Below, one piece after another: positions 12,951-30,720 of a stretch of DNA of 64,000 bases. The first letter of the stretch is position 1, and every line of letters starts with the position of its first letter. Source of the DNA: Clostridiales bacterium. Its GTDB lineage: Bacteria; Bacillota; Clostridia; Lachnospirales; Lachnospiraceae. Both the position numbers and the translations under genes were made by a program. The notes beneath the pieces were generated by a model, which worked only from the letters and a program-made list of their open reading frames with translations, searched no databases and had not been told where the DNA came from. The stretch covers positions 62,001 through 126,000 of the forward strand of contig DUNO01000008.1 of assembly GCA_012839295.1 (NCBI GenBank), written 5' to 3'.

Positions 12951-12983
12951 GTGAATTACCAAATAAAAAGGAGGTTTACTTTT

Positions 12984-15218: not shown

Positions 15219-15231
15219 GGAGGGCCGGAAA

Positions 15232-16071
15232 ATGAATCAAAAATTGAAAAAAAAGCTGTTAGCCATCTGTCAGTGGCTGCTTGCAATCATAGGGGCACTG
15301 ATCATTCTGATTCCGGTCTATTGGATTTTTATTTCATCCATAAAACCCAATACAGAACTTCTGACAAGTCCGATTGACTGGATTCCAAAGCACTTTACAC
15401 TGCAAAGCTACAAAACACTGATTCATACGGTAGGGATTCTTCCCCAGATAGGAAGTACCCTGATTGTCACAACCCTGACTCTGGTTATTACAACCGTTTT
15501 CTGTGTGCTGGCAGCCTATGCTTTCGAACGGTATTCTTCAAAAGGCCTGTCCCTCGCTTACGGAATGATCGTATTTTCAGCAATGATTCCCGGAATTGTG
15601 ACTGCAAGACCCCTTTATGATTATCTGAAATCCTTAAAGCTGGTGGATACCTATCCGGGCCTGATTCTGCTTTATACCAGTGCGCTGATTCCATTTACCA
15701 TTCTGATCTTGCGTAATTATCTGAGCGGCATTCCAATTGACATTGAAGAAGCGGCCGAAATTGACGGAGCAGGACATTTACAAAAGATAATGTTTGTGAC
15801 CATGCCTTTGCTAAAGCCTGCTGTGTCAACTGTATGTATTATTAATTTTATTAGCTGCTTAAATGAGTTTTTTATACCTTTATTCTTTTCGCAGAAGATA
15901 AAAGTATTGACCATAGGAATATCCACTTTGCCAAGAGCCAATTCCTATGATGTTCCCTGGGATTTATTAAGTGCCATGGGCTGTATTATTCTGATTCCGA
16001 TTATCATATTTGTCATGATATTCGAAGAAAACATCATGGAAGGCATTATGGCCGGCGGTGTAAAAGCCTGA
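15232..16071 (+). CDS. Sugar ABC transporter permease (MalG/UgpE type)
   Basis: A 279-residue partner permease with about six transmembrane helices. The EAA loop is EAAEIDGAGHLQKIMFVTMP. The start is ATG at 15232 behind AAGGAGGG; an earlier in-frame ATG at 15193 lies inside the upstream permease gene and lacks a ribosome site. It ends in the conserved region MEGIMAGGVKA. With the preceding permease it forms the membrane channel of the uptake system. Confidence 0.92.
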   Translation: MNQKLKKKLLAICQWLLAIIGALIILIPVYWIFISSIKPNTELLTSPIDWIPKHFTLQSYKTLIHTVGILPQIGSTLIVTTLTLVITTVFCVLAAYAFERYSSKGLSLAYGMIVFSAMIPGIVTARPLYDYLKSLKLVDTYPGLILLYTSALIPFTILILRNYLSGIPIDIEEAAEIDGAGHLQKIMFVTMPLLKPAVSTVCIINFISCLNEFFIPLFFSQKIKVLTIGISTLPRANSYDVPWDLLSAMGCIILIPIIIFVMIFEENIMEGIMAGGVKA

Positions 16072-16097
16072 CCTTACGTTATTAGGAGGAAAATGAA

Positions 16098-17520: not shown

Positions 17521-17656
17521 TTCAGCTCCTTGCTGTTCCGGGTGTTTTCTATTGTTAGTGCTTTTTTATCACTGTAAATCTTCTGCCGCACACTTAGCGT
17601 ATAAATTATTGTTCATGGTGACAGGCACCGGTATTCCGACCAATATTCCGGGAATG

Positions 17657-19267
17657 TTACAATTCCCGGACTAATTTTCTTATGGGCAAAACAAAGGACG
17701 GCGAGACCGACAATTCATCTATTCCCATTTCAATAAATGTTTTTGTCAGGGCGGTATCCGCCGCCAGCTCACCGCAGATCCCTACCCAGCAGTTTTCCTT
17801 GTGTCCATGGTCAATAACCATCTGTATCATCCGTAAAATGGCTGGATGATGTGCATCATAGAAGGAATCCAGCTTGGAATTCTGCCTGTCGATGGCTAAA
17901 GTATATTGGGTCAGGTCATTGGTGCCTATGCTGAAAAAATCTACCTCCTTCGCCAAATCATCACTGACCATAACCGCCGCCGGCGTTTCTATCATAATCC
18001 CTTGTTCAACCTCACCATAAGGGTATTTTTCCTGCTTTAATCCATCCCTTACTTCCCCGAAAATTTCCTTCACCTTTTTAATCTCACCGACCGAAATGAT
18101 CATCGGATACATAATCGATATATTCCCAAATGCACTCGCCCTCAGAATAGCGCGCAGCTGGGTTTTAAATAATTCCACACGGTCTAAGCAAATCCGGATC
18201 GCCCGGTACCCTAACGCCGGATTTTCTTCCTTTGCCAGGTTAAAATAATCCACCTGCTTATCTGCACCAATGTCCAGGGTACGGATAATCACCTTCTTAC
18301 CGGCCATGTTCTGGGCCACTGTTTTATAGACCTGGAACTGCTCCTCCTCCGTAGGGTAAGTATCCCTTCCCAGATAGATAAATTCACTTCGGAAAAGCCC
18401 GATTCCTTCCCCGTCATTTCGATGGACAAATGCCACATCGGAGGCATTCCCAATGTTGGCATACAGCTTGATCCTCTTACCGTCCCTTGTTATTGTTTCT
18501 TTTCCTCTTAGCTCCTGCAGCATGGCTGCTTTTTCCTGGTCATTATGGATCCTTTTGCTGTATTCCCTCAGTGTGGCTTCATCCGGATTTATGATCAATG
18601 CTCCACTGACCCCATCCACAATAGCCAGCTTACCATCAAAATCATTTGAAAACTCAACACAAATCAGCGCCGGTATATTCATCGTCCGTGCCAGAATCGC
18701 AGTATGGGAGTTGGTGGAGCCCAATCTTGTGACAAAAGCAAGCACTTTACCGGTGTCCATCTGTACCGTTTCACTTGGAGCAAGATCCTCAGCAAGTATG
18801 ATGACCGGCTCTTCCCCTCCCAGTGTCCTTTCTTCCTTTCCGGCAAGGATATTGATGATTCTCGTTGAGATATCCTTTACATCCTCTGCCCTTGCTTTCA
18901 TATATTCATCCTTCATCCCTGAAAACATGGATGCAAAATTATCTCCCGTCGTAGCAACAGCAAACTCTGCATTCGTATTCTGGGTAGTTATAATATGCCG
19001 GATGGATTCCTGGTAATCCCCATCCTGGATCATCATCTGGTGAACGTCAAAAATCGCGGCGCCCGATTCCCCGAATTCCTTCACTGCTTTCTCATATAGC
19101 TTTTCAAGCTGGCCCACCGCTTTTTCCGATGCTCTTTTTACCCTTTCAAGCTCTGCCTGGGTATCCTCGGTATGGGTACGTTTTATACTCTGGTTCTCCT
19201 TTTCCCATACCATAACCCTTCCTATTGCTATCCCTGCAAAAACAGATTTACCCGATATAATTTCCAC
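17657..19267 (-). CDS. ptsI: PTS Enzyme I (phosphoenolpyruvate-protein phosphotransferase)
   Basis: Takes phosphate from PEP and passes it to HPr. It has 536 residues, slightly shorter than the usual 570 or so. The phosphorylated His is in GSTNSHTAILARTMNIPAL, and the PEP-binding domain has GIGLFRSEFIYLGRD, MIMIETPAAVMVSDDLA and the catalytic Cys in GICGELAAD. The start is GTG at 19267 with GGGGAGGAAGC upstream. It is the last gene of the PTS operon, after a dedicated HPr. The general ptsHI pair is expected elsewhere in the genome, so this looks like a pathway-specific copy (inference). Confidence 0.93.
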   Translation of the reverse strand: MEIISGKSVFAGIAIGRVMVWEKENQSIKRTHTEDTQAELERVKRASEKAVGQLEKLYEKAVKEFGESGAAIFDVHQMMIQDGDYQESIRHIITTQNTNAEFAVATTGDNFASMFSGMKDEYMKARAEDVKDISTRIINILAGKEERTLGGEEPVIILAEDLAPSETVQMDTGKVLAFVTRLGSTNSHTAILARTMNIPALICVEFSNDFDGKLAIVDGVSGALIINPDEATLREYSKRIHNDQEKAAMLQELRGKETITRDGKRIKLYANIGNASDVAFVHRNDGEGIGLFRSEFIYLGRDTYPTEEEQFQVYKTVAQNMAGKKVIIRTLDIGADKQVDYFNLAKEENPALGYRAIRICLDRVELFKTQLRAILRASAFGNISIMYPMIISVGEIKKVKEIFGEVRDGLKQEKYPYGEVEQGIMIETPAAVMVSDDLAKEVDFFSIGTNDLTQYTLAIDRQNSKLDSFYDAHHPAILRMIQMVIDHGHKENCWVGICGELAADTALTKTFIEMGIDELSVSPSFVLPIRKLVREL

Positions 19268-19390
19268 AGCTGCTTCCTCCCCTGCTTACAGACCTGCATC
19301 ACTAGAAATAATGGATTCCCCTGCCCTGCCGCTGATGCATCAGGCCGGAGCACTGTAATCCAATGATTTGATTTAACCTAATTACCTGGA

Positions 19391-19648
19391 TCAGAGATTC
19401 TCCTTAAAGAATTTTTCGAGGATGCTTACGTCCGAATCCTCCTCTTCACCTTCTACTATCACTGTAATTTCATCGCCCTTTTTCACGCATAAGCCCATGA
19501 CCGCAAAAATCTTTTTTGCATCACCCCTGGAGCCGTCCTTATCAATAGTCACCTTACTCGTTAATTTACCGGCTTCCTTTACTAACAGCCTTGCCGGCCT
19601 CGCATGCAGGCCTTCCTCGTCATTAAGAATATATTTGAATGATTTCAT
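19391..19648 (-). CDS. ptsH: HPr-like phosphocarrier lacking Ser46
   Basis: An 85-residue phosphocarrier that relays phosphate from Enzyme I to the EIIA and perhaps other partners. The active His15 is present in GLHARPARL. The position normally held by regulatory Ser46 (KSIMGVMSL in classical HPr) reads KKIFAVMGL here, with Lys46. HPr kinase should not be able to phosphorylate it. The start is ATG at 19648 behind GAGGTG; a longer reading frame to 19759 overlaps the EIIC gene end and was rejected. It sits between EIIC and Enzyme I, so it is the local carrier. Confidence 0.9.
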   Translation of the reverse strand: MKSFKYILNDEEGLHARPARLLVKEAGKLTSKVTIDKDGSRGDAKKIFAVMGLCVKKGDEITVIVEGEEEDSDVSILEKFFKENL

Positions 19649-19685
19649 ATCCGTCACCTCGTATTCATTAACTAGTCTTCTAAAT

Positions 19686-19712
19686 GTGGCACAAGCCGTA
19701 AGCCTGTGCCAC
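19686..19712 (-). other. Hairpin between EIIC and HPr genes
   Basis: GTGGCACAAG pairs with CCTGTGCCAC across a short loop, with no strong U-tract on the transcribed strand. It probably stabilises or separates transcript segments rather than ending transcription. Confidence 0.45.
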
Positions 19713-19727
19713 ACTTTTAAAAAGTAC

Positions 19728-20774
19728 TTATGCCTCTTCAACATCCTCATCCATGGCAATCTCTTCCTGTGTAGGAGCCTTCTTAAACAGTAGGATCAGC
19801 GCACAGCTTACTCCTGAGCCGATGAGCAGAGCCAGTGTCAGCAGAACAGGCTTATTGCATAAGGCCACCACAAAATATCCGCCGTGGGGAGCCGCCATGG
19901 TACAGCCGAATAGATAGGAGCAAATTGCGCCAGCTGCACCGCCTGCCATAAAGCAAGGGATATAGAGCAAAGGATTTCCTGTTGCAAAAGGAATTGCAAA
20001 CTCAGATATCATGGCAAGCCCGCCGACAAAGCAGCCGCCAGTCGCATCACGTTCCACCTTGGTAAATTTCTTCTTTCTTATAACCATTGCCAAGGCAATG
20101 GATAAGGGAGGAACCATGGAAGCTACGAAGTTTGCTGCCATAGGAGCATTGTTGCCCGCTGCCTGGGTTGCCAGGGCGAAAGCGTAAGCTGCTTTATTCA
20201 CCGGTCCTCCAAGGTCAAAGGCAAGCATGGCTCCCTGCACCAGCCCCAGTACCACAAGGGCGCTTCCCTGTAATCCGCTTAAGAAGTCCAGCATTCCCTT
20301 GTTAATTGCAGCAATCGGATTACCTAATACAATCTCCATGATAAATCCAATCGCCAGTGTACCGATAACCGGGATAATTAATGTCGGCAATAATGACCTG
20401 AGCGCACGCGGCAACGGAATTTTCTTTAATAACTGAACCAAATATCCTGCGATAATACCTCCAATTAAAGCTGCAATAAAGCCTCCGCCAATATGATCGG
20501 CACAGATACCGGCGATCATGCCCGGCAGGATTGCCGGTTTGTCACCAATGGAAAATGCAACATAGGCAGCCATAATCGGAACCATCATACCAAATGCATC
20601 TTTGCCCCACCAGAAGATCCTGGACCAGAATCCGGTTTCACTCTGTGTAACCGCTACCGCTCCTCCCCCTGCAAAGCCAATCGCTACTAAGATACCACCT
20701 GCCACAACGAATGGAAGCATATAAGAAACACCTGTCAAAAGAGACTGCTTAATATCCTTTAAAACACTATTCAT
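19728..20774 (-). CDS. PTS fructose-family EIIC permease component
   Basis: A 348-residue integral membrane sugar channel of the fructose/mannitol-type PTS. It opens MNSVLKDIKQSLLTGVSYMLPFVVAGGILVA, a typical fructose EIIC start, and has about nine to ten hydrophobic segments. GGPVNKAAYAFA and MAAPHGGYFV match conserved EIIC text around the sugar site. The start is ATG behind GGAAGG. EIIB, EIIA, HPr and EI are all separate neighbours, so the whole phosphorelay is local. The transported sugar is not shown by sequence; a ketose or polyol delivered as a phosphate ester is likely. Confidence 0.9.
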   Translation of the reverse strand: MNSVLKDIKQSLLTGVSYMLPFVVAGGILVAIGFAGGGAVAVTQSETGFWSRIFWWGKDAFGMMVPIMAAYVAFSIGDKPAILPGMIAGICADHIGGGFIAALIGGIIAGYLVQLLKKIPLPRALRSLLPTLIIPVIGTLAIGFIMEIVLGNPIAAINKGMLDFLSGLQGSALVVLGLVQGAMLAFDLGGPVNKAAYAFALATQAAGNNAPMAANFVASMVPPLSIALAMVIRKKKFTKVERDATGGCFVGGLAMISEFAIPFATGNPLLYIPCFMAGGAAGAICSYLFGCTMAAPHGGYFVVALCNKPVLLTLALLIGSGVSCALILLFKKAPTQEEIAMDEDVEEA

Positions 20775-20813
20775 ACCAATACCTTCCTTTCCCCTAATAA
20801 AAAACGCATTGAA

Positions 20814-21110
20814 TTATTGCAATATTATTTCCGGTTTTTTGATTACCTCATGCGGTGAAAACTGCCTGATCTTATCCTTAGGAAAATCCTTAAACCGTTC
20901 AACCTTTGTTATTCCGACGTCATTCGCAAAGACCAGCAGGTCGGCCCCGGCAATATCCTTGGCTGATAGCATATTTTCAATCCCAAGGGCTCCCTGGATT
21001 TCTACTTTGCAAGAATGGCCGTTCTTCTTACAGACTTTTTTAATTGCTTCCGCAGACATATAGGAATGTGCGATTCCTGTTGCACAAGATGTTATGGCAA
21101 TAATAAACAT
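20814..21110 (-). CDS. PTS fructose-family EIIB component
   Basis: A 98-residue cytoplasmic EIIB. The phosphocysteine is in the N-terminal SCATGIAHSYMSAEAI, and the remainder matches fructose EIIB (ADLLVFANDVGI). The start is ATG at 21110 behind GGAAAGGAGGGG; an upstream in-frame start at 21152 overlaps the EIIA end. It accepts phosphate from EIIA and passes it to the sugar crossing EIIC. It ends 39 bases before the EIIC start. Confidence 0.9.
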   Translation of the reverse strand: MFIIAITSCATGIAHSYMSAEAIKKVCKKNGHSCKVEIQGALGIENMLSAKDIAGADLLVFANDVGITKVERFKDFPKDKIRQFSPHEVIKKPEIILQ

Positions 21111-21126
21111 GGTACCCCTCCTTTCC

Positions 21127-21606
21127 CTATTTCTCCAATTGGTCAATACCATTTAATAGTTCCTCATAGCTTTGGGCATTTGCGATTAATTCCACAAACT
21201 CCTCCCTCACAAGATAGCCTGACAGGGTTGCGAGAATCCTTAAGTGGGAATTATCAGCCTGATTATCAATAATGGCCAACACAAAAATGTATTTTACAGG
21301 TCCTTCTTCCTCGCCGGACCGGTAGATAAAGCTGTCTTTGCATCGGATAAACCCAACTCCCGGCTTGATAACCTCCTTACACTTCCCATGGGGAATTGCT
21401 ATGAATTCTCCCATGTAGGTCGGTCCCAGGCTTTCCCTGCTGTCAAGGGATTGTTTAAAAGCCACTTTGTCTGATACAATGCCTGTTTCTTCAAATTTTT
21501 CGGAAATATATAAGAATAATTCTTCCTTATCCTTAAAGGGCTCTGCATCAATAATCATCAGCTCTTTGAGTAATACATCTCTAATTTTGATTTCTTGATC
21601 TCCCAA
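21127..21606 (-). CDS. PTS fructose-family EIIA component
   Basis: A 159-residue phosphocarrier of the fructose/nitrogen EIIA family. The phosphorylated His lies in EFIAIPHGKCKEV, and GPTYMGEF precedes it as in the family. The start is TTG at 21606, with GGAAG about nine bases upstream; no better ATG exists without losing conserved sequence. It is the first gene of the EIIA-EIIB-EIIC-HPr-EI segment, and its 298-base upstream region holds the terminator of dhaL and presumably its own promoter. Confidence 0.88.
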   Translation of the reverse strand: MGDQEIKIRDVLLKELMIIDAEPFKDKEELFLYISEKFEETGIVSDKVAFKQSLDSRESLGPTYMGEFIAIPHGKCKEVIKPGVGFIRCKDSFIYRSGEEEGPVKYIFVLAIIDNQADNSHLRILATLSGYLVREEFVELIANAQSYEELLNGIDQLEK

Positions 21607-21780
21607 TATAAATACTTCCTTTCTGTTTCATAAGTAATCCTTCGAAAACATGCGCGCTTTTTTCTTTGAATCATCTTACCCTTATTGTAACAAAGCCAAC
21701 CTAAGATAGATACCCTTCAAAAAACATGATTTTGCACCTTATTTGTGATAATGGTATATTTTCTATATCTTATTTAAATT

Positions 21781-21826
21781 AAAAGCGGTCATACTCCACA
21801 ATTAGAAAAGAAGTACCACCGCTTAT
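21781..21826 (-). terminator. Terminator after dhaL
   Basis: On the minus strand AAGCGGTGGTAC pairs with GTATGACCGCTT and is followed by TTAATTT. It separates the aldolase-to-dhaL transcript from the PTS transcript. The rest of 21607-21904 shows no gene; a GTGCAAAA element lies at 21730-21737. Confidence 0.6.
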
Positions 21827-21904
21827 TCATTGTATTTTTATCTATAATCAAACCTATTACTGCTTTCAAACTGACAATTATGAACAATTTTAAATCATGC
21901 CATC

Positions 21905-22531
21905 TTATAAAAGCCTTTGAAAAGATTGTGCCATGGAGGTCAGCAGCAGGTAGCAGCTCGTAGCACCGGCATCCAGGACACCCTTCGAACGCTCCCCTAA
22001 CCGGCTGGCTCTTCCTATTCTGGCAATCATGTTCTCAGTTGATTTCCATCCGTCAAGTGCCGCTTTTTTTAATGCTTCTAATGCCTCCGCAAAATCTTTT
22101 CCGGCCTCCAGCGCAGCATGATAGGCTTCCTTCGCGGGCAGCAAGGTATCCAGCAGGGTTTTATCCCCGCGTTTAGCACTTCCGATATCCTCTATGGCAG
22201 CGATTCCGTTTCCAAGCATTTCACCAAACACCTCCGGGCTGATTACTTCCTTTGCTGCAAAGGCCATCTCTCCAAAGAAAGCTCCATACAAAGGACCCAT
22301 GGAGCCTCCGATATCCTCCTGCAGAGTTTCAGATAGGGCACTAAGCCCTTCGGACAGGCCAAATTCCTTTCCCTTTAATTTCTCTTCACAAAGGGTAAAG
22401 CCTTTATTCATGTTAATCCCATGGTCACCGTCACCAATCTTCCCGTCAATTTCACTTAAGAAGTCCTTGTTATCCCGGATGACCTTTACTAAATCAATAA
22501 CCACAAATCCGGCCTCCTTATCCTTAATCAT
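21905..22531 (-). CDS. dhaL: Dihydroxyacetone kinase L subunit (DhaL family)
   Basis: The nucleotide-binding half of a dihydroxyacetone-type kinase, 208 residues. The metal-binding aspartates and His are in DGKIGDGDHGINMNKG (about 29-44), and GGSMGPLYGAFF and a terminal GVLDAGATSCYLLL match the family. The start is ATG at 22531; a GTG nine bases earlier lies immediately against the AGGAGG and cannot be used. Its start is 12 bases from the dhaK stop, implying coupling. In DhaKLM systems ADP stays bound to DhaL and is recharged by DhaM; no DhaM is encoded here. The substrate could be dihydroxyacetone or a tetrulose. Confidence 0.9.
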   Translation of the reverse strand: MIKDKEAGFVVIDLVKVIRDNKDFLSEIDGKIGDGDHGINMNKGFTLCEEKLKGKEFGLSEGLSALSETLQEDIGGSMGPLYGAFFGEMAFAAKEVISPEVFGEMLGNGIAAIEDIGSAKRGDKTLLDTLLPAKEAYHAALEAGKDFAEALEALKKAALDGWKSTENMIARIGRASRLGERSKGVLDAGATSCYLLLTSMAQSFQRLL

Positions 22532-22543
22532 GGCCTCCACCTC

Positions 22544-23542
22544 CTACCGCTGTTTTAATCCGGTGCTATCAGCCGGCATATCAATACATTCCTTTAGCTC
22601 TTTGTCCAATTTCATGACAGTCAGGGTTACCCCCTTCATATCCAGGGATGTAAAATAATTGCCAACATAAGCCTTATATACCAATATTCCATTCTCTTTT
22701 AAGATTTCTTCAACCCTGTTATAAACAATGTATTGCTCCATGACCGGTGTCGCACCAAGTCCCGACAGCAATACCACCACTTCATCCCCTGCCACAAAGG
22801 GTAGATCCGGAAGGATGATATCCAGCATTTCCTGGGCAATTTCATCCGCAGTTTTCAGCTTTTCTACTTTTACGCCCGGTTCCCCATGATGTCCTATGCC
22901 CACCTCCATGGTTCCATCTGCGATTTCGAAATTCGCATGTCCAACGGCCGGGATTGTACAGGGTGCCACCCCTACTCCTACACTTCTTGTGTTATCAATT
23001 GCTTTCTGGGCTGCCGCAATGACTGCATCCAAATCCGCTCCCATAGCTGCCTTTGCCCCGCCTACCTTCCACATCAGGACCTCTCCGGCAACGCCGCGCC
23101 GTTTCTCCCTTTCTGTCTTCGGCGCAGATGCACAGTCATCATTTGCCACCACCGTCTTTACTGTAATCCCGTCCTTCTCAGCCCGGCGGATTGCCATCTT
23201 GACATTCATATTGTCACCTGCATAATTGCCGTAGAGACAGGCTACCCCTCTTCCTGCATCCGCTTCCACCATTGCATTATAAAAGGATTTAGCAGTAGGT
23301 GAAGAAAAAATCTGCCCTACGGCCACTGCATCGCACATGTTTTCTCCTATATAACCGATAAATGCAGGCTTATGGCCTGAGCCTCCCCCTGTGACAATAC
23401 CTACCTTTTCTTTGATTGGGGTATTTACATACTTTAATACCTTATCATCTTTTGTAGCAGCGATTAAATTCCCGTTTGCCTTTATAAAGCCCTTTAGCAT
23501 ATCCTCTACAACATAATCCGGATCATTGACAATTTGGTTCAC
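22544..23542 (-). CDS. dhaK: Dihydroxyacetone kinase K subunit (DhaK family)
   Basis: The substrate-binding half, 332 residues. Visible family residues are His57 in GGGSGHKPAF, Asp110 in GNYAGDNMNV, and His218/219 in GIGHHGEPG, one of which forms the covalent hemiaminal with the ketose. VLLSGLGATP is also conserved. The start is GTG at 23542 behind AAGGAG. Together with dhaL it phosphorylates a short ketose. Tetrulose kinases of known erythritol and threitol pathways belong to this same family, which matters given the neighbouring isomerases. Which ketose is used is unknown. Confidence 0.92.
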   Translation of the reverse strand: MNQIVNDPDYVVEDMLKGFIKANGNLIAATKDDKVLKYVNTPIKEKVGIVTGGGSGHKPAFIGYIGENMCDAVAVGQIFSSPTAKSFYNAMVEADAGRGVACLYGNYAGDNMNVKMAIRRAEKDGITVKTVVANDDCASAPKTEREKRRGVAGEVLMWKVGGAKAAMGADLDAVIAAAQKAIDNTRSVGVGVAPCTIPAVGHANFEIADGTMEVGIGHHGEPGVKVEKLKTADEIAQEMLDIILPDLPFVAGDEVVVLLSGLGATPVMEQYIVYNRVEEILKENGILVYKAYVGNYFTSLDMKGVTLTVMKLDKELKECIDMPADSTGLKQR

Positions 23543-23610
23543 CTTGCATTCTCCTTCCTGATATTAGTTATTAACCGGGTGTACTGCCTGATTATGGGTA
23601 AGATCCTATA

Positions 23611-24060
23611 CTAACCCCTGTATTGGTTCTCAACCTTCATAATCCGCTCTACCTTCTCCGTGGAGCCTCCGCCTGCAAATTCACAGGACAACCAGAGATC
23701 CACCAGATACTTTGCCAGCTCCACACCAATGACACGTTCCCCCATACACATAATCTGTGCATTATTGCTTTTACGGGAGCGCTCCGTTGAAAACGGGTCA
23801 TGGCAGACTGCTGCCCGGATTCCCGGAACCTTATTCGCCGTCATGGCCATGCCTATCCCGGTACCGCAGAGCAGGATTCCCCGCTCAAATTCTCCTGCTA
23901 CAATTGCCTCCGCTACCTTTTGTGCTACATCCGGATATAAAATGATTTCACCGGCCTTTGCCCCGAAATCCACAGCTTCTATACCCTCGGTCTGAAGATG
24001 CTTTATAATTTCAAGCTTTAAGCCATATGCTGCTTCATCACATCCAATTGCTATTCTCAT
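23611..24060 (-). CDS. RpiB/LacAB-family sugar-phosphate isomerase, divergent active site
   Basis: A 149-residue aldose-ketose phosphate isomerase. Cys65 in ILLCGTGIGMAMTANK matches the RpiB catalytic cysteine and anion hole. Two histidines normally seen in RpiB are changed: DHA(G/A) near the N-terminus is CDEAAYGLK (Glu9), and ARxHNxAN is SRKSNNAQ (Ser98). The enzyme is therefore probably not a plain ribose-5-phosphate isomerase. Members of this family convert D-erythrulose-4-phosphate to D-erythrose-4-phosphate in erythritol pathways, which fits dhaKL and the epimerase next to it. The start is ATG at 24060; the longer frame to 24156 has no ribosome site. Confidence 0.85.
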   Translation of the reverse strand: MRIAIGCDEAAYGLKLEIIKHLQTEGIEAVDFGAKAGEIILYPDVAQKVAEAIVAGEFERGILLCGTGIGMAMTANKVPGIRAAVCHDPFSTERSRKSNNAQIMCMGERVIGVELAKYLVDLWLSCEFAGGGSTEKVERIMKVENQYRG

Positions 24061-24159
24061 CCTAATAACCTTACCTTTCTGATACCTGCAAATTTTGATC
24101 CGCAGATGCAATATCTGCAAAGTGAATTGGTTTTCACAATTTATACTAACGGACATTTG

Positions 24160-24206
24160 GCCGCAAGGCCACAGGGTGCCGGATGTGAAATGCTCTGCAT
24201 TTCACA
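24160..24206 (-). other. Hairpin pair between isomerase and epimerase genes
   Basis: Two inverted repeats lie in the 150-base gap: TGGCC/GGCCA near 24160-24173, and TGTGAAATGC-tct-GCATTTCACA at 24184-24206, with perfect ten-base arms. No U-tract follows. They may stabilise the transcript or cause differential expression. Confidence 0.45.
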
Positions 24207-24210
24207 CTTC

Positions 24211-25068
24211 CTACAAAGCATCTGAAATTGCCTTTAGGTTCCTAAGCCCTTCAATTGCCAGTATTTCACCAGTTTCGGCAAACTTCCGCCAAATGGCGCA
24301 GTTACCTGCCAGCTCCTCAAAGCTGGGGTCAAAGGATTCAATAACCAGAGGCCCCTCATACCCCACCTCTGCAACGGCCTGGAAAAATTCCTTGAAGGGT
24401 ACAAGACCCGTTCCCGGGATTCCCCTGTCATTCTCGTTCACGTGGATATATCCCAGGTATTCCTTTCCACAGGTTTTCACGGCTCCGGCAAAGCTCTTTT
24501 CCTCCCGTATCATATGGAAGCAATCCAAGTGGACCTTTATATTTCCCGTCCCTACATCCTTGCAAAACTTCACTGCATCCTCCGCTATATTCAGGAAAAA
24601 GGTCTCAAAGCGGTTAACACATTCCACACAAATAATTACCTCTCCCGTTGCCCTTGCATATTCTCCAACCTGGCGCATACACTCTACTCCCCATTGCCAT
24701 TCCTGCTCTGTGCGCGGTTTTTTCGTCAGGTAGCCCCAGCCTGCATAGTTTACTCCGCCCAGGATTGGTGCGCCAAGATAATTACAGATATCGACACAGC
24801 GTTTCATGGCCTCCACACCGGCGTTACGTATCTCCGCTTCCGGGGAAATAGGATTTGTCTGGGCCGTTAGGGTCGTAGTGCAGACACAGTCTATTCCTAC
24901 GCGCTCCAGCTCCTGCTTTACCAGCTTCTCGGGAAAAGCATAGGGATCGGAGATGGCAAAATCTATTACTTCAAAGCCAAGCTCCTTTGCTTTCCCAATG
25001 ATCCATAAATCTTTTTCACTAAACTTCTCTGTCCAAATAAAGCTATCTACACCATATTTAAAATACAT
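24211..25068 (-). CDS. D-tagatose/allulose 3-epimerase-family TIM-barrel enzyme
   Basis: A 285-residue metal-dependent sugar isomerase/epimerase. The four metal ligands of the family are visible: Glu149 (ICVECVNRFETFFLN), Asp182 (VHLDCFHM), His209 (YIHVNENDRGIPGTG) and Glu244 (VIESF). VNRFE and ENDRGxPGTG are characteristic of ketose 3-epimerases. The start is ATG at 25068 behind GGCGGGAG. Close relatives act on D-psicose, D-tagatose or L-ribulose; TIM barrels of this superfamily also act as tetrulose-phosphate racemases. Its position beside the RpiB-like isomerase and DhaK suggests a role in the same ketose path. Confidence 0.85.
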   Translation of the reverse strand: MYFKYGVDSFIWTEKFSEKDLWIIGKAKELGFEVIDFAISDPYAFPEKLVKQELERVGIDCVCTTTLTAQTNPISPEAEIRNAGVEAMKRCVDICNYLGAPILGGVNYAGWGYLTKKPRTEQEWQWGVECMRQVGEYARATGEVIICVECVNRFETFFLNIAEDAVKFCKDVGTGNIKVHLDCFHMIREEKSFAGAVKTCGKEYLGYIHVNENDRGIPGTGLVPFKEFFQAVAEVGYEGPLVIESFDPSFEELAGNCAIWRKFAETGEILAIEGLRNLKAISDAL

Positions 25069-25081
25069 ACGCTCCCGCCTT

Positions 25082-25735
25082 TCAAAATAATTTTATAATT
25101 TCATCTGCCCTACTGACAATATAGGTGGCTCCGCTGTCTATTAATTCCTTCCGCTCCCGGAACCCCCACAGTACGCCAATAGTGTCCATTCCTGCATTTG
25201 TACCCGTCAGCATATCCGCCCCTGAATCTCCTGCATATAAAATCTCATGGGGTGATAATTTCATCTTCCTGGCAATCTCCAGGGCGGAATAGGGATCCGG
25301 CTTTTTGGGGATTCCCTTACGTTCTCCAATCACATCTACAAAGGGAATTCCGGGAAAATGCTTTTTGATCAAATTATTTGTGTAGTCCGTTCTTTTATTG
25401 GAATTTACAGCCAGCTTGATTCCCTTAGCATCAAGTTCCCCCAGCATCCTTAAAATACCGTCGTAAGGCGCTGTCTTATCCATGTACTTTTCGTCATAAA
25501 TCCGCAGAAACATTGCCAATGCCCCATCAATTAAGCCCGCATCCCAAGACCCTGCGGGAAAGCTGACCTCTAGAAGATTTCGAAAGCCCCGCCCTATTTT
25601 TAATTTATAGTCCTCACAGGTGTGAACCGGGTGCCCATACTGCTTTAATACCTGATTTACACTATCCGATAAATCCTCCAGGGTGTTTAATAAGGTTCCG
25701 TCCAAGTCAAAAATTGCTCCCATGTAATGCATCAT
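25082..25735 (-). CDS. HAD-family sugar-phosphate phosphatase
   Basis: A 217-residue phosphoglycolate-phosphatase-like HAD hydrolase. Motif I is FDLDGTLLNT (nucleophile and acid Asp), motif II is VNSNKR, and the acidic motif is YAGDSGADMLTGTNAG. The start is ATG at 25735, eight bases after AGGAGG; an upstream ATG at 25741 is too close to that site, and the frame extending to 25786 is unsupported. It lies 13 bases before the epimerase start, so it is part of the operon. It may dephosphorylate a dead-end sugar phosphate or a pathway intermediate. Confidence 0.82.
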   Translation of the reverse strand: MMHYMGAIFDLDGTLLNTLEDLSDSVNQVLKQYGHPVHTCEDYKLKIGRGFRNLLEVSFPAGSWDAGLIDGALAMFLRIYDEKYMDKTAPYDGILRMLGELDAKGIKLAVNSNKRTDYTNNLIKKHFPGIPFVDVIGERKGIPKKPDPYSALEIARKMKLSPHEILYAGDSGADMLTGTNAGMDTIGVLWGFRERKELIDSGATYIVSRADEIIKLF

Positions 25736-25819
25736 GGCCATAGCCTCCTTTTTTTGAAAAGAGCATTTCCGCAAAGACCCTTGCACACATCTTTGCAGCT
25801 GAGTTTCCCCTGGTACGCA

Positions 25820-25853
25820 AAAGGTTTTTCGCCAATGTCAGCGAAAAACCTTT
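25820..25853 (-). other. Hairpin between bicupin and HAD genes
   Basis: AAAGGTTTTTCGC pairs perfectly with GCGAAAAACCTTT across an eight-base loop. On the minus strand a short TTTT follows, so it could act as a partial terminator or a transcript-stabilising element inside the operon. Confidence 0.5.
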
Positions 25854-25879
25854 CGTTTATCTTGGCATTACGGCTTATC

Positions 25880-26797
25880 TTATAATTCTGTAATTGCGAA
25901 GACCATCTTAATAGGGTAATTTTCAAAGTTTACTAACTGATATTTTGTTCCTGAAGGGAGGAAGAAGGAATCCTCCGGATACAGCACGAAGCTTTCCTGC
26001 TGATCCACCAGGTTTACCGTCACCGGCCCATCAATACAATAAAGTGCCGCATCTCCCACATGCAGATCGGGATCCGAGCAGCGCGGGCCGTAGCCTCCTG
26101 CCGGAAGAATAAATTCTCCAAAGTGGCCATAGTCATTACTTGAGATGAACCGCATCAGCATTGGATGCTTTGTTCCATGGATATTGTTCAATTTCTCGAA
26201 GTCACGTATGCCATATACTGCCCCGGTATTTCTTGCCTCCTTGGAATCGACAGGGGGCCAGCAGCCGATATCATCCGTGCAGCCCTGCCGTGAAATATCA
26301 TGGATCCTTCCCCTCATGTCGGGGAGCTTGTCATTATTGGGACCTTTGTAGAACTTTGTCTCTTCATCCGATGGGATTACCGCCGGAGGTATCTCGTTGC
26401 TCCAGGCCTTTGGAGTGATGAAATAAAGGATTCTGGCCTTCTTGTTAGAAAAGTTGTGGCAGCAATGCCATGCCCCTTCCGGCATCCACAGCCCTTCCCC
26501 GGTCTCCAGATAGGCAAATTGTCCGTTACCGCTTCTTTGGACAACGGGTCCGTCAAGGATGTAGTAGGTTTCATCTCCAGGATGGATGTCTAGGGGCAGG
26601 AATACACCCCCTGGACACAATTCATAAATACCAAGCATAAAGGTATCGGTAGTCACAATGGTAAAGGTATTATCCGATGTAAATGCATCATTTGGTGGGT
26701 ATAATGCTGTTGAATAATCCTGTTTGCGGATTAACACCGGCTTTTTCTCCCCTGCCGGAAACGGAAATTTCTCTAGTATATCAACTAATTTAGCCAT
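25880..26797 (-). CDS. Bicupin protein, function unknown
   Basis: A 305-residue protein with two cupin folds. The N-terminal cupin keeps candidate metal ligands: HPGDETYYILDG (His, Glu) and PEGAWHCCHN (His). The C-terminal cupin is weaker: DLHVGDAALYCIDG and PSGTKYQLVN, with Tyr at the last His position. The start is ATG at 26797 behind AAAGGAGGATATTC. It lies between the aldolase and HAD genes in the catabolic operon, so it is probably a sugar-phosphate isomerase or a mutarotase-like helper. Cupin isomerases such as phosphoglucose or lyxose isomerases are possible models, but nothing specific can be claimed. Confidence 0.72.
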   Translation of the reverse strand: MAKLVDILEKFPFPAGEKKPVLIRKQDYSTALYPPNDAFTSDNTFTIVTTDTFMLGIYELCPGGVFLPLDIHPGDETYYILDGPVVQRSGNGQFAYLETGEGLWMPEGAWHCCHNFSNKKARILYFITPKAWSNEIPPAVIPSDEETKFYKGPNNDKLPDMRGRIHDISRQGCTDDIGCWPPVDSKEARNTGAVYGIRDFEKLNNIHGTKHPMLMRFISSNDYGHFGEFILPAGGYGPRCSDPDLHVGDAALYCIDGPVTVNLVDQQESFVLYPEDSFFLPSGTKYQLVNFENYPIKMVFAITEL

Positions 26798-26858
26798 GAA
26801 TATCCTCCTTTTTATTTACTGGTTCTTACTTTTATCTGCCGCTATCTGCTGCTGTTTT

Positions 26859-27737
26859 TTATTTTCCGTTCTTAAAGGCCAGGATAACGTCCTTTGCATA
26901 GCCCTTCATGAATTGGTATGCCTCTTCCTGCAGCTCATGGTAAGGGATTTTTCCCTCTGTTTCAGCGATCCTGTCAGCAACAAATTTAGTTGCTGCCTTC
27001 GCCATATAGGAATAGTAATTTATCTTTGAGCAGCCTGCCTGGATGGCCTGCTTAACCTGGGAGAATTCAACCCCGGATGCCCCGTGCATTACAACCCTGC
27101 AATCCTCAGGCAGCGCTGCGCGTATTTCCTTTACCCTGTCGATATCGAGCACCGGCGGTTCTGCATAAATCCCGTGCATTGTCCCAAAGCATACCGCCAA
27201 AGCATCACAGCCGGTCTCTTCGGCAAATTTCTTAGCTTCCTGGGGCTCAGTAAAGAACTTCTTAATGTCTTCATTGGTAAGCACCCTGCTTTCGTCCCCT
27301 CCATGGCTGTCCTCCTCCGTGGAGGCCATGACACCAAGCTCTGCTTCTACCGTAATCCCTGCCGCGTGAGCTATCTGCACAAATTTTTTGACCTTTTTAA
27401 CGTTCTCTTCAAAGGGTAGGGCACTGCAGTCATACATAATTGACGGAAATCCAACGCGGATCGCCCGTAATACAAAATCGTAGTCACTGCCATGGTCCAA
27501 ATGCACACATACGGGAACGGATGCCTCCCTTGCATACTTGAGCATCTCCGGGCCGATTCTCTCAATTGGGATCAGGGAATCGTGAACCTGTGCATGGTCA
27601 ATGATGATGGGTGTATCCAGTTCCTCTGCCGCCCCGATGACCGCACGGAGCGTCTCAACATTCGGGGTGTTGATGCAGGGAATGGCATATTGCTCCCGCT
27701 CCGCAATTTCAAGAATTTCCTTTAAGTTAACTAACAT
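26859..27737 (-). CDS. Class II (zinc) ketose-bisphosphate aldolase
   Basis: A 292-residue metal-dependent aldolase of the fructose/tagatose-bisphosphate family (FbaA/GatY/KbaY). Zinc and catalytic residues are visible in VCVHLDHGSD, VEAELGVM, CFGTMHGIY and VVMHGASG, and the phosphate-binding end is SKINYYS. It cleaves a ketose 1-phosphate or bisphosphate to DHAP and an aldehyde. The start is ATG at 27737 behind AAAGGAGGATAAAA. It is the first gene of the catabolic operon. A DHAP-making aldolase fits a route from a PTS-phosphorylated ketose to triose phosphates. The exact stereochemistry cannot be read. Confidence 0.88.
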   Translation of the reverse strand: MLVNLKEILEIAEREQYAIPCINTPNVETLRAVIGAAEELDTPIIIDHAQVHDSLIPIERIGPEMLKYAREASVPVCVHLDHGSDYDFVLRAIRVGFPSIMYDCSALPFEENVKKVKKFVQIAHAAGITVEAELGVMASTEEDSHGGDESRVLTNEDIKKFFTEPQEAKKFAEETGCDALAVCFGTMHGIYAEPPVLDIDRVKEIRAALPEDCRVVMHGASGVEFSQVKQAIQAGCSKINYYSYMAKAATKFVADRIAETEGKIPYHELQEEAYQFMKGYAKDVILAFKNGK

Positions 27738-27941
27738 TTTTATCCTCCTTTACGTTGTCATGCCTTATTAACTGCTTCCTACCTCAATCATAGCGAATTC
27801 CAAAATGAAAGTACATATTCCATAATTTCGTATTTTGCACAGTATTTTTTTTATTCGGGCAATAAAAGATTTTATACAGGTATAAGACCCGGGATGGGTT
27901 TTGGCACCATAAAAATTCATGTGCATTTTTGGCATAAAGAA
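27738..27941 (-). promoter_or_regulatory. Upstream region of the catabolic operon
   Basis: About 200 bases between the aldolase start and an upstream terminator hairpin. A GTGCAAAA element lies at 27833-27840. Direct repeats TGCCAAAA occur near 27895-27935 on the minus strand. A convincing sigma-A promoter was not pinned down. The region is AT-rich and holds no gene; the operon's operator is most likely here. Confidence 0.4.
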
Positions 27942-27966
27942 AGCACCCACTCCAAAGGTGGATGCT
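27942..27966 (-). terminator. Terminator of the lipoprotein transcript
   Basis: AGCATCCAC pairs with GTGGGTGCT around a CTTTGGA loop on the minus strand, followed by TTCTTTA. It separates the lipoprotein gene from the catabolic operon. Confidence 0.6.
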
Positions 27967-28049
27967 CCATGAAATCAAGTACAGATTGAATATTTGATTT
28001 TTCTGATTGAAATTCAGGCCTCTCTCCCTAAAAGCCAAGTGAATGAAAA

Positions 28050-28661
28050 TTATTGTTTATTAATTTGTATGCTTTTTAAAATACCCAGAATCTGCTGCTT
28101 ATTGCTATCAAAATTCTTTTCTTCAGCCTCGATAATTACCCCATTAAATTCTTTTTCTAAAACTAGATTTAATTTTACTTTTCCATCAGACCGAATGAAC
28201 CTAATTATTCCTGAAATCCCTTCATTCGTTGTAAACTCTTCCCTTTCTTCTCCTTCTCCATAACTTGGAATTGATATATGACCATCTTGCCCATATACAT
28301 AAATCCAATCATCTTTGATACTGTTTATATAAATATCTATACCGCCTTGGGGATCGCCATCCAATGTGTCAGTCTCTGAACTATTACCGGCATAAGATTC
28401 CCAGTCTTCCGGATAATCAACGCTAAATTTAAACCTCTCATCATAATATGTTTTCGGATTACTAATTTCAAAATTGTCTATATCAGAAAACAAACCAGAT
28501 GCAGTATTATTAATTTTTTCTGTAGGAGCAGGTGATAATGATATCTTATCAGGTTGTTTATCAGGAATTCCAATCTGATTATTTTCATTTGTTTTACTGC
28601 AACCTGATAGTAATAGAATAAAAACCAAAAGTAGCAATGCTTTACCTTTAAATTCTATCAT
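28050..28661 (-). CDS. Hypothetical lipoprotein
   Basis: A 203-residue exported lipoprotein. The signal peptide ends in lipobox LLSGC (about residues 18-22). A low-complexity linker follows, then a compact domain starting YDERFKFSVDYPEDWES, resembling PsbP-like lipoprotein domains seen in other Firmicutes. The start is ATG at 28661 behind TTGGAGGATTTATAA. It lies between the regulator and the catabolic operon but has its own terminator, and its base composition is more AT-rich than its neighbours. A link to sugar metabolism is unproven; it could be a passenger gene. Confidence 0.75.
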   Translation of the reverse strand: MIEFKGKALLLLVFILLLSGCSKTNENNQIGIPDKQPDKISLSPAPTEKINNTASGLFSDIDNFEISNPKTYYDERFKFSVDYPEDWESYAGNSSETDTLDGDPQGGIDIYINSIKDDWIYVYGQDGHISIPSYGEGEEREEFTTNEGISGIIRFIRSDGKVKLNLVLEKEFNGVIIEAEEKNFDSNKQQILGILKSIQINKQ

Positions 28662-28752
28662 TTATAAATCCTCCAATAGTTTCACAATAATGAACATTTA
28701 ACAAATAAGGGTATCCCGGACCACTACGCCGGGATGTTCCTATGAGCTGCTA

Positions 28753-30720
28753 TTATACCTTTGAATTTAAAATATAGGCTAAAATCTGTTCACTGGTCTC
28801 CGCTGTTTTTATCTTTTTCAATAATTCCTGGTTTTCAATCAGTACGTAGAGGTAATGAAACAGCATTTTAACCTTTACCGGTTCCTTGTATTTGATGGCG
28901 ATCAGGAATATCAGCTTAACCTTTTCTTCATTATTCCAGGTAATCGGATTCTTCACCCTTGCTACCACAATCCGGTTTGCATTGATATCCTCCTGGTAAT
29001 GGTGGGGTATTGCTATTTCATTTCCGATGGAAGTGGGGCAAAAGCCCTCCCTATCAAGTACCTTCCGGCAGTACCCCTCCTCCACATACCCTTCCCTTTG
29101 CAGTAATTCAGCCATCTTCATAATGGCTTCTTCTTTTTTACGGGCATTTAAATCTGCTATGATCAATTTTTCATTAAAGACCTCATGGATGATCTCCTGC
29201 AGCACCTTGCTTTGATATTTCCAGTCCACATTCTCCAGGCCTTCCTTGATGATTTCCAGATCCTCTTCCGTTAAATGTTTTGTAATCTCGATTGGATTGT
29301 CCGCATCCTTTTTAAAGGGAACCGTTGAAATCACCAGGGCATCCTTTGCCAGCTCCCTGTTAAACTCCTTAAAATAAATACATCCTTTAATATTTAAATT
29401 AGGTATTGCTTCCTCAATCTTTCCTTTCTGGTACAGGGCTGTGTGGAGGTTTGTCCCATGCACCAGCAGGGCAGGTATCCTGTTTTTCACGTCCCTGATA
29501 CAATTATTAATGAGAAGTGCCAGCCAGGCAACATCATCCTGCCTGAAACGGCAGCCGATCTTGCTCTCTACCCCGTGGAGGTTCGCCAGGCAGATTCCAT
29601 AAAGTCCTGTCAGCTGCTGCTGGATGTCCCTATATAAATCACTCCAGTCCAGGATCTGATATTGCTCACGGATTTTAACACGCATGAAGGAAAGGCTCAT
29701 TTCCTTTATCAGCTCATCATTTACGCTTAACACCTTCGTATCAATAATCGCTTCAATCCCAATGAGAAAATCAATGGCAACATCCCTGCAGTCATCATTG
29801 CATTCCACGTTGTTGTCATTGCAGGTAAAGGCCACAAAAAGCCTGGCGGCTAAATACTGGGCCTCCGCCTCATATTCCCGCTTTCTCTCCGGGAGCAGCT
29901 TCTTCAGCATTTTTGCAGCTACCTCCGAATATTTGGGGCCTATTTTAACTGTCTCTTCCCCTCTGGTATTCTTATTGATCGGCTTTCCTATCCGGACCCT
30001 CTCCAGCGTTATTGTCAGATATTCTAACAATCTTCCAAAAGCAATATCCGTAAATTGTACCCCTAATTCCTGCTCACCCCGCCTAAGCTCCTCCTGGATT
30101 TTGACTAAATCCTTGATGGAATAGGTATTGGATAAATAGGTGTACGCCTTTTTGCTTATTCTCTTATCCATGCCTCCAGTGTCCTGGGCAATCGTGTTGC
30201 GGTTCCAATTCCAGTATTTAGAATTGTTGCACTGGGTCATGGCCTGTCTTATATTAAATTCCTCCCCTTCAAGAATGATGCCTTGATTCCGCACCCGTTT
30301 AATCCTGACATGGAATTCTAACAGCTCTTTCTCAATCCGTTCCAAATCCTTTTGGATCGTATTTTTACTAACGGATAACTCATCCATAAATAATTGGATG
30401 GTATAGTTTGCCTGAAACAAAAACAAGGTTTCCAGGATGTATTCCTTCCGGAAGGTATAAAATTCCGAGGTCTGCCTGACCTCCTGGTTTAAGGCGCTTA
30501 TGATGGCGCTCCTCTGCTCCGGCGTGGCTATCAGGCACAGACCCTTTTTGGGAATGCTTTGCAGCACTACATTGAATTTTTCAAGCTCCTCTTTTATATG
30601 TGATAAATTATGTTTAATATTACTAGCAGATATACCCGTCATTTCAGCCAGGGAGCTGGCTGTAATATAACCTTCTACCTCCACAATGCTTCTTATAACC
30701 TTCTCACTTATGATATCCAT
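28753..30720 (-). CDS. PRD-domain transcriptional regulator, MtlR/LicR-like, with degenerate PRDs
   Basis: A 655-residue multidomain PTS-controlled regulator. It has two N-terminal HTH domains (about 1-170), PRD1 and PRD2 in the middle, an EIIB-like segment (about 415-510) and a C-terminal EIIA-like domain with GNEIAIPHHYQE. PRD histidines that HPr and EII normally phosphorylate appear replaced: LLEYLTITLERV and AQYLAARLFVA in PRD1, EMSLSFMRVKI and DDVAWLALLINN in PRD2. No Cys is seen at the EIIB position (LVHGTNLHTAL). The start is ATG at 30720 behind GGAAGGATCAG; the longer frame to 30858 was rejected. It is probably the regulator of the adjacent catabolic and PTS operons. Confidence 0.8.
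   Translation of the reverse strand: MDIISEKVIRSIVEVEGYITASSLAEMTGISASNIKHNLSHIKEELEKFNVVLQSIPKKGLCLIATPEQRSAIISALNQEVRQTSEFYTFRKEYILETLFLFQANYTIQLFMDELSVSKNTIQKDLERIEKELLEFHVRIKRVRNQGIILEGEEFNIRQAMTQCNNSKYWNWNRNTIAQDTGGMDKRISKKAYTYLSNTYSIKDLVKIQEELRRGEQELGVQFTDIAFGRLLEYLTITLERVRIGKPINKNTRGEETVKIGPKYSEVAAKMLKKLLPERKREYEAEAQYLAARLFVAFTCNDNNVECNDDCRDVAIDFLIGIEAIIDTKVLSVNDELIKEMSLSFMRVKIREQYQILDWSDLYRDIQQQLTGLYGICLANLHGVESKIGCRFRQDDVAWLALLINNCIRDVKNRIPALLVHGTNLHTALYQKGKIEEAIPNLNIKGCIYFKEFNRELAKDALVISTVPFKKDADNPIEITKHLTEEDLEIIKEGLENVDWKYQSKVLQEIIHEVFNEKLIIADLNARKKEEAIMKMAELLQREGYVEEGYCRKVLDREGFCPTSIGNEIAIPHHYQEDINANRIVVARVKNPITWNNEEKVKLIFLIAIKYKEPVKVKMLFHYLYVLIENQELLKKIKTAETSEQILAYILNSKV

Follow-up and report, generated by a model that had tools for sequence, protein, structure and literature searches.

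A conserved gene set around a putative erythrulose module in a Lachnospiraceae genome

The 64,000-nucleotide stretch of DNA analysed here (the window; positions 62,001 to 126,000 of contig DUNO01000008.1, assembly GCA_012839295.1) comes from a Clostridiales bacterium of the Lachnospiraceae, with a genome of 6.36 Mb in 82 contigs. A minus-strand locus at positions 17657–27737 of the window, with all twelve genes present as intact open frames, encodes a class II aldolase, a bicupin, a HAD phosphatase, a TIM barrel of the D-tagatose 3-epimerase family, an RpiB-family isomerase, the kinase subunits DhaK and DhaL, and the EIIA, EIIB, EIIC, HPr and Enzyme I (EI) proteins of a phosphotransferase system (PTS). 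These are known parts in a new arrangement. The locus is read here as a conserved operon for the PTS-dependent catabolism of an uncommon sugar, organised around an erythrulose module, and we hold this reading of the whole with slightly less than even confidence. Its core, the conversion of a tetrulose to erythrose-4-phosphate, is the best supported step and is rather likely. The observations made by sequence comparison are the gene identities, the conservation of the set, an altered segment in the aldolase, and the relatedness of DhaK and RpiB to genes linked with DthD or with tal and RpiB. An initial annotation of the window had named the same twelve genes and families, and every assignment was borne out by Pfam and NCBIfam profile matches (Table 1). 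The present analysis adds to it the conserved set, an aldolase apparently suited to a substrate without a terminal phosphate, and a bicupin position that is filled in other loci by three other isomerase-type proteins.

In the proposed route, the EIIABC permease would import a ketose as its 1-phosphate, and the class II aldolase would cleave this compound, releasing dihydroxyacetone phosphate (DHAP) together with a free aldose. In the simplest case that aldose would be an aldotetrose and the imported sugar therefore a ketoheptose. The tetrose would be converted to D-erythrulose by the barrel and the bicupin: one of them would interconvert aldose and ketose, and the other would carry out a further isomerisation or an epimerisation at C3. 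DhaK-DhaL would then form erythrulose-4-phosphate, and RpiB would convert it to erythrose-4-phosphate, which would enter the pentose phosphate pathway. We infer every substrate in this scheme, as well as the order of the steps, the roles of the bicupin and the HAD phosphatase, and the heptulose. A heptulose front end is the simplest joint use for the PTS, aldolase, isomerase, barrel, DhaKL and RpiB; cleavage of a ketoheptose-1-phosphate to DHAP and a tetrose is nonetheless a doubtful part of the scheme. A bacterial ketoheptose route (for sedoheptulose, mannoheptulose or an L-series heptulose) with a dedicated tetrose-salvage module would be so far undescribed, and is offered as a rather unlikely but concrete suggestion.

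The gene set is conserved. One scan of a species-genome collection, with an alignment of the barrel and two peptide patterns, gave 76 loci; they are a sample only, and many are short contigs or come from related genomes. A gene was scored as present if a tblastn match of at least 35% identity was found on the fetched stretch (the DhaK of locus L070, at 37% identity, is counted on this basis). DhaK is present in 55 of the 76 loci and RpiB in 42, every one of them also with DhaK, and two main layouts are seen around a core of barrel, RpiB, DhaK and DhaL. The first is the PTS layout of the window, with a window-type bicupin in 23 loci. The aldolase (at least 55% identity), EIIB, EIIC, DhaK and DhaL are each found in 22 of these, EIIA in 18 (and, with a wider reference set only, also in L078, L080, L082 and L100), RpiB in 17 and the HAD phosphatase in 10. 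Because six genes (aldolase, EIIB, EIIC, barrel, DhaK and DhaL) occur together in 20 of the 23, the clustering, as judged from gene content, is not a matter of chance. The three bicupin loci without the full set (L029, L063 and L077) all end at contig ends. The bicupin by itself is rare: among 391 genomes of the class it was found in two, in each case within this locus type. In one metagenome contig (L082:9465-10375) its gene is apparently split into two open reading frames (ORFs), perhaps by an assembly error. Carriers of bicupin loci include Lachnospiraceae, Erysipelotrichaceae, Coriobacteria, Pectinatus, Propionispora and Alkalibaculum, and the locus type is present in the strains Anaerostipes butyraticus, Longicatena caecimuris, Breznakia pachnodae and Pectinatus haikarae.

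The second layout, in 22 of the 76 loci, has a 400-residue protein (U400), together with an Rbs-type ABC permease in 8, an ADP-dependent phosphofructokinase-like kinase in 9 and an FGGY kinase in 7 (that of L043 at just 23% identity). Neither an Rbs-type permease nor an aldolase is on the fetched stretch of 11 of these loci. In five loci from Bacillota (L065, L097, L041, L099 and L084), an ADP-dependent glucokinase/phosphofructokinase-like protein adjoins an FGGY kinase, an Rbs-type ABC transporter and an aldolase. The host itself has a second locus with another form of this core, on contig C79 (L114), in which no barrel was seen in the 15 kb viewed. It contains an Rbs-type ABC transporter, two FGGY-type kinases, a split transketolase, a fucose-isomerase-type gene, RpiB (74% identity to that of the window), DhaK (75%), DhaL and two aldolases (47 and 35%). 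Split transketolase genes adjoin the core in L060 and L069 as well, and count in favour of the proposed route.

The relationships of the kinase point to a tetrulose. A tblastn search of plasmids with the window DhaK, which is one of three DhaK genes in the host and scores 348 bits against TIGR02363 (cut-off 406), returned 118 records with E values of 1e-115 or lower, of which 117 have 60–80% identity. Nine plasmid neighbourhoods were viewed, with the closest outside DhaKs (62–67% identity) and in a collection with incomplete gene tables, and seven of them have RpiB or a short-chain dehydrogenase/reductase (SDR). Three enterobacterial loci (L110, L122 and L123) contain transaldolase, RpiB, an alcohol dehydrogenase, an MFS transporter, DhaK, DhaL and a sugar-binding regulator, with transketolase additionally in L110 and L122 and an SDR in L123. 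A betaproteobacterial locus (L124) has RpiB and a fused DhaKL, and in L112, L125 and L127 an ABC transporter and an SDR accompany DhaK-DhaL. All three SDRs tested (L112, L123 and L127) score above the cut-off of the GolD/DthD (D-threitol) family. Genes annotated as bifunctional, with a sugar-binding regulator and a DhaK domain in one protein, adjoin DhaK-DhaL in L112, L125, L126 and L127, and L111 has a gene of similar size.

A midpoint-rooted tree of 45 DhaK sequences, covering 25 of the 55 DhaK-bearing loci picked for spread, places the window DhaK in a group of 34 with plasmid kinases, among them those of L112 and L127 (support 90/88). E. coli DhaK pairs with the fused DhaKL of the host outside this group (100/97), and the second DhaK of L050 forms a very long branch, also outside. 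The split is supported by a signature: HHGE is present in 34 of the 34 members of the group (in two of them the stretch ends in EAG or ESG), compared with IHGE in 9 of the 11 outside sequences, including E. coli DhaK. The second DhaK of L050, with GHGE, is one of the two exceptions. On these grounds we propose that the window DhaK-DhaL is an erythrulose kinase.

The RpiB-family isomerase, one of five RpiB/LacAB genes in the host, is proposed to convert D-erythrulose-4-phosphate to D-erythrose-4-phosphate. It is 56% identical to the RpiB of L110, 54% to that of L123 and 52% to that of L124, compared with 44% to the host copy on contig C11, which we take to be the housekeeping one. Its score against the NCBIfam model for D-erythrulose-4-phosphate isomerase (DerI), a model named as a Rhizobiales type, is 162.6 bits, compared with 157.0 bits for TIGR01120. 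The difference between the two scores is +5.6 for the window, -50.9 for the C11 copy, and +35.1, +35.3 and +23.2 for the plasmid RpiBs of L110, L124 and L123. Among the other loci it is +25.8 (L036), +22.0 (L065), +19.4 (L079), +16.3 (L099), +3.9 (L075), +3.7 (L114) and +0.1 (L060), falling to -2.3 in L044 and -4.1 in L069. The lean toward the DerI model is thus clear relative to the C11 copy, yet on these scores it is not specific. The initial annotation had argued from known erythritol, threitol and erythrulose routes that end at erythrose-4-phosphate, and had suggested a comparison of gene neighbourhoods. That comparison, as run, yielded the conserved set from the barrel scan and tied the DhaK relatives to RpiB and SDR genes; together with the SDR scores and the lean of the locus RpiB, it favours the erythrose-4-phosphate logic.

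There is one clear difference between the aldolase of the locus and bisphosphate aldolases. In the latter (the solved KbaY and Thermus chains), one segment reads N-x-x-S/T-D/E-L-R/K, and its Arg/Lys residue presumably binds the terminal phosphate of the ketose bisphosphate. The window aldolase reads NYYSYMAKA here. In an alignment of 42 sequences, all 23 of the bicupin type (from the window and 22 bicupin loci; none was seen in L063) have N-Y-Y-S-Y-M/L-A/G and lack the basic residue of the segment, while 17 others, including those of the ABC transporter loci, keep S-D-I/T-K. The enzyme looks adapted to substrates that carry no terminal phosphate, and would probably release DHAP from a ketose-1-phosphate. 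The loss of the Arg/Lys residue fits with uptake by the PTS, which is expected to yield a ketose-1-phosphate, and with a cleavage that leaves the aldose free. E. coli YdjI uses long aldehydes that lack a terminal phosphate, and we know of no DhaKL or RpiB partners for it. It is likewise a class II aldolase without the Arg/Lys residue (NIHTELCQA; PDB 6ofu), although only a distant homologue of the window enzyme (147 bits).

The kinase and the aldolase also bear on an alternative route for a rare ketohexose, in which a hexulose-1-phosphate would be cleaved to DHAP and glyceraldehyde, the latter would be converted by an isomerase to dihydroxyacetone, and DhaKL would phosphorylate this to DHAP. 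Dihydroxyacetone is the classic substrate of DhaK-family kinases, and a fructose-type PTS with an aldolase that lacks the terminal-phosphate residue suits hexulose-1-phosphates. RpiB, moreover, was not found in 6 of the 23 bicupin loci. In the other 17, however, RpiB would have no job, nor would a ketose 3-epimerase, because dihydroxyacetone is achiral. The locus DhaK lies outside the group of E. coli DhaK and differs from it beside the presumed catalytic His, and the host has a separate fused DhaKL that adjoins a gene read by eye as a glycerol-dehydrogenase type. The ketohexose route is, in our judgement, improbable.

In the erythrulose scheme, the tetrose would be processed by the barrel and the bicupin. 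The best NCBIfam match of the barrel is D-psicose 3-epimerase (171.7 bits, below the cut-off of 300), and the nearest solved chains are D-psicose and D-tagatose 3-epimerases (best E 5e-40). The segments VECVN, HLDCFH, IHVNE and VIESFD are present, and presumably contribute the metal-binding Glu, Asp, His and Glu residues. The barrel also matches TM_0416 at E 3.6e-18. TM0416 is a member of the barrel family that converts D-erythrose and D-threose to D-erythrulose, D-erythrose being the most active substrate in the screen reported in the cited part of that study (PMC8167858). The same part describes a shorter lid and different O4–O6 contacts in TM0416 than in most of the family (PMC8167858), and the likeness of the window barrel is therefore at the family level only. 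The barrel may be an isomerase of a free tetrose, or a 3-epimerase that links L- and D-erythrulose.

The bicupin has four invariant residues (H72, E76, H111 and H114, in 18 of 18 sequences), and its AlphaFold model (mean pLDDT 75) has a generic bicupin fold. A structure search with this model placed quercetin dioxygenases at the top and oxalate decarboxylases and vicilins below, from which no reaction could be read. Bicupin and U400 occur together in none of the 76 loci (23 and 22 loci, respectively; Fisher p 7e-5, uncorrected for kinship). A D-lyxose isomerase-family gene is found in seven other loci (PF07385 was tested on L085), and fucose-isomerase-type genes lie near the core in L051, L060, L062, L068 and L092 (by Pfam), in L031 (by similarity) and in the host C79 locus. 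One of these four kinds of protein is present in 50 of the 55 DhaK-bearing loci, with two kinds each in L031 and L051 and none in L040, L070, L071, L076 and L079; a candidate from L076 was without a match in Pfam. Two of the four kinds belong to genuine aldose-ketose isomerase families, and we therefore propose from its position that the bicupin acts on the free aldose as an aldose-ketose isomerase or an epimerase. Four members of U400 were searched against Pfam and NCBIfam, and none had a match. Its HxH, KPEAYYF and PAGVIHAP motifs (for example in L065:8742-9932) recall mannose-6-phosphate isomerase by eye; in a profile search that family appeared at just E 0.79, below a spurious-looking match at 0.007. 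A sulfo-sugar reading of the fucose-isomerase-like gene was rejected, as its match to SftI scores 68 bits (cut-off 700) and DhaKL would be left without a role. For the HAD phosphatase, the clean-up of dead-end sugar phosphates is a guess.

With isomerase genes of these kinds, a pentose route can also be drawn: an aldopentose or pentulose would be isomerised and 3-epimerised (D-xylulose to D-ribulose), DhaKL would form ribulose-5-phosphate, and RpiB would convert it to ribose-5-phosphate. We know of no DhaK-family pentulose 5-kinase, however, the near relatives of the window DhaK adjoin DthD-family dehydrogenases, and the aldolase and the PTS would be left without a role. RpiB does belong to the ribose-5-phosphate isomerase family, D-lyxose-isomerase- and fucose-isomerase-type genes adjoin the core in other genomes, and ketose 3-epimerases are described as working well on ribulose in the cited part of PMC8167858. 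The probability we assign to a pentose substrate is low.

As to uptake, EIIB and EIIC score above the cut-offs of the fructose subfamily and EIIA belongs to PF00359 (against the fruA model TIGR00848 it scores 93.0 bits, below the cut-off of 103.5), which gives a fructose-type EIIABC permease. The initial annotation had regarded a full PTS relay of its own as part of the system, and this did not hold. EI and HPr accompany only one of the 23 bicupin loci, L050, and complete EI genes number five in the host, with two more pieces at contig ends. A dedicated relay was thus rejected as a defining part, and by this comparison the EI and HPr of the window are a local addition that is not conserved in the locus type. 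Several host EI genes adjoin HPr or EII genes (L118–L121), so that several PTSs seemingly have their own relay.

The PTS might instead import erythrulose, erythrose or a tetritol directly, with the aldolase as a side branch. A PTS for tetroses is named as one possibility in the cited part of PMC12780249, and a 5.2-kb contig (L079) has barrel-DhaK-DhaL-RpiB and an Rbs-type ABC transporter, with no aldolase in view. The import of a tetrulose would not explain the aldolase of 22 of the 23 bicupin loci, however; cleavage of tetrulose-1-phosphate would give DHAP and formaldehyde, and there is no alditol-phosphate dehydrogenase among the locus proteins scanned. Direct uptake is accordingly quite unlikely. 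Less likely still, DhaKL could be a ketose-1-kinase that feeds the aldolase, with the PTS importing something else. DhaK phosphorylates the hydroxyl adjoining a ketone, and L085, L086 and L090 have DhaKL, an aldolase and a lyxose-isomerase-type gene with no RpiB found; in the window, however, the PTS would already make a ketose-1-phosphate, and RpiB would be unexplained. A route from apiose via apulose and a split transketolase was considered because the two transketolase halves adjoin the core in L060, L069 and the C79 locus, and no supporting evidence was found for it, a limited literature search having given nothing useful.

Several points weigh against the erythrulose scheme. All enzyme activities and substrates given here, for the window and for the other members of the locus type, are predictions from sequence. 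Within the kinase comparison, L071 has HHGE yet falls outside the tree group, the gene tables of two plasmid neighbourhoods (L111 and L126, with ABC genes and DhaK) list neither RpiB nor an SDR, incomplete as these tables are, and the locus DhaKs (L071 included) have GHKP where the eight plasmid DhaKs of the group have GHEP, so that the substrates of the two may differ. The window RpiB is below the cut-off of the DerI model (240 bits), which no locus RpiB reaches; the three RpiBs that adjoin related plasmid DhaKs are also below it (165–174 bits). A divergent host RpiB on contig C16 has a lean of +25.5, and for those of L069 and L044 the ordinary rpiB model gives the slightly better score. Of the six bicupin loci in which RpiB was not found, five have DhaK in view (L088 is near a contig end). 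Two unrelated second aldolases (L050 and L075) likewise lack the basic residue. Sedoheptulose catabolism by this route would be wasteful compared with a single kinase, and if the aldolase yields D-erythrose, either the bicupin or the barrel would be superfluous unless the stereochemistry needs both. Finally, the window locus has no threitol-type dehydrogenase.

Several known systems can be compared with the locus. The Mycolicibacterium smegmatis pathway for D-threitol, L-threitol and erythritol ends at erythrose-4-phosphate in the outline given in part of PMC12780249, and the cited part of PMC10733421 describes its enzymes EltD, LerK, LerI and DerI, with erythrulose kinase and isomerase activities. 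Relatives of the window DhaK adjoin dehydrogenases of the GolD/DthD family. In contrast to M. smegmatis, the window has PTS uptake, an aldolase, a bicupin, a 3-epimerase-family barrel and a HAD phosphatase; a tetritol dehydrogenase (DthD/EltD) was looked for, and no dehydrogenase family was found among the proteins scanned at 17657–30720. In this comparison DthD, DerK and the membership of the M. smegmatis enzymes in the DhaK and RpiB families are our assumption. The enterobacterial and rhizobial plasmid loci (L110, L122 and L123; L112, L125 and L127) resemble the window in their DhaKs, in the RpiBs of L110 and L123 and in the HHGE signature (L122 is outside the alignment). They carry dehydrogenases as for an alditol, however, whereas the window has none and apparently splits a phosphorylated sugar, and GHEP replaces GHKP. 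E. coli DhaKLM shares the DhaK and DhaL families, but its DhaK is only 34% identical to that of the window and has IHGE in place of HHGE. None of the locus proteins matched a DhaM-type EIIA(Man) domain (the hits of EI and HPr to the DhaM model come from shared domains only), which rules out membership in a DhaKLM system.

The design of PTS, aldolase, DhaKL and HPr is also found on a Citrobacter plasmid (L134, 1814–8947), where a PTS EIIABC, a BglG-type regulator, a class II aldolase/adducin, DhaK, DhaL and HPr lie between ilv genes. Its aldolase is of another superfamily, its DhaK is 40% identical, and barrel, bicupin and RpiB are not listed. Among the matches listed from the open-access PMC literature (preprints being outside its scope), none concerned this gene set by its title or the start of its abstract. 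The cited part of the Merdibacter massiliensis genome report (PMC6538751) gives gene counts, with one dhaM among them, and contains no description of an operon of this kind.

Table 1. Features of the locus and its upstream region, in window coordinates.
Feature	Coordinates	Strand	Evidence
PRD-domain regulator, Mga-type HTH and C-terminal EIIA(fru/mtl) domain	28753..30720	-	PF05043, PF08279, PF00359 above cut-off
Lipoprotein-like ORF between regulator and aldolase	28050..28661	-	open frame
Class II aldolase	26859..27737	-	PF01116, 268 bits; HLDHG segment kept
Bicupin, 305 residues	25880..26797	-	Cupin_2, two stretches
HAD phosphatase, phosphoglycolate-phosphatase-like	25082..25741	-	PF13419
D-tagatose 3-epimerase-family TIM barrel	24211..25068	-	PF01261
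RpiB-family isomerase	23611..24060	-	PF02502; PRK05571, 182 bits
DhaK-type sugar-binding kinase subunit	22544..23542	-	PF02733, 379 bits; HHGEPG and GHKPAF signature
DhaL-type nucleotide-binding kinase subunit	21905..22531	-	PF02734 and TIGR02365 above cut-off
Fructose-type EIIA	21127..21606	-	PF00359, 108.7 bits (cut-off 27)
Fructose-type EIIB	20814..21110	-	TIGR00829, 86 bits (cut-off 76.9)
Fructose-type EIIC	19728..20774	-	TIGR01427, 300 bits (cut-off 157.6)
HPr	19391..19648	-	PF00381; HARPA site
Enzyme I (EI)	17657..19267	-	TIGR01417, 609 bits
Terminator-like hairpin at convergent locus end	17647..17670	.	consensus match only

The twelve genes lie where the initial annotation had placed them, and the locus extends beyond its interval on the upstream side, where a PRD-domain regulator is found on the same strand. 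The regulator matches PF00874 at 28.9 bits, and its start codon is one choice among several. It is immediately upstream of the aldolase in L029, L033, L034, L044 and others. The lipoprotein-like ORF between the two genes has no match in Pfam or NCBIfam; in the closest locus (L029) the aldolase directly follows the regulator, and from this comparison the ORF is probably not part of the system. The expected active-site motif strings are present in EI, HPr, EIIA, EIIB, DhaK, DhaL, RpiB and the barrel, the choice of catalytic residues within them being our assumption. The gap between EIIA and DhaL is 299 bases, which makes a single transcript uncertain, and two transcription units are possible. 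Terminator-like sites number 20 in the region (13.3 expected), and an Rfam scan of 12000–33000 gave nothing at the gathering score.

On the opposite strand, positions 12981–17477 encode an ABC sugar transporter (a substrate-binding protein and two permeases) and a 459-residue double cupin, which is found in 2 of 299 genomes of the family. This cassette was rejected as part of the system, since it occurs in L137 at 73–81% identity without the PTS locus. There it is near genes that resemble, by eye, a two-component system and a Gfo/Idh dehydrogenase.

The locus type offers a list of candidates in the strains named above. If the proposed route is true, it would add a path from a C7 sugar to C3 and C4 products, and its enzymes would be available for rare-sugar chemistry. 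The HHGE signature may then separate erythrulose kinases from dihydroxyacetone kinases that are annotated alike. The salvage module, which also occurs where neither an aldolase nor a PTS is in view, would supply the enzymes so far missing from bacterial tetrose use.

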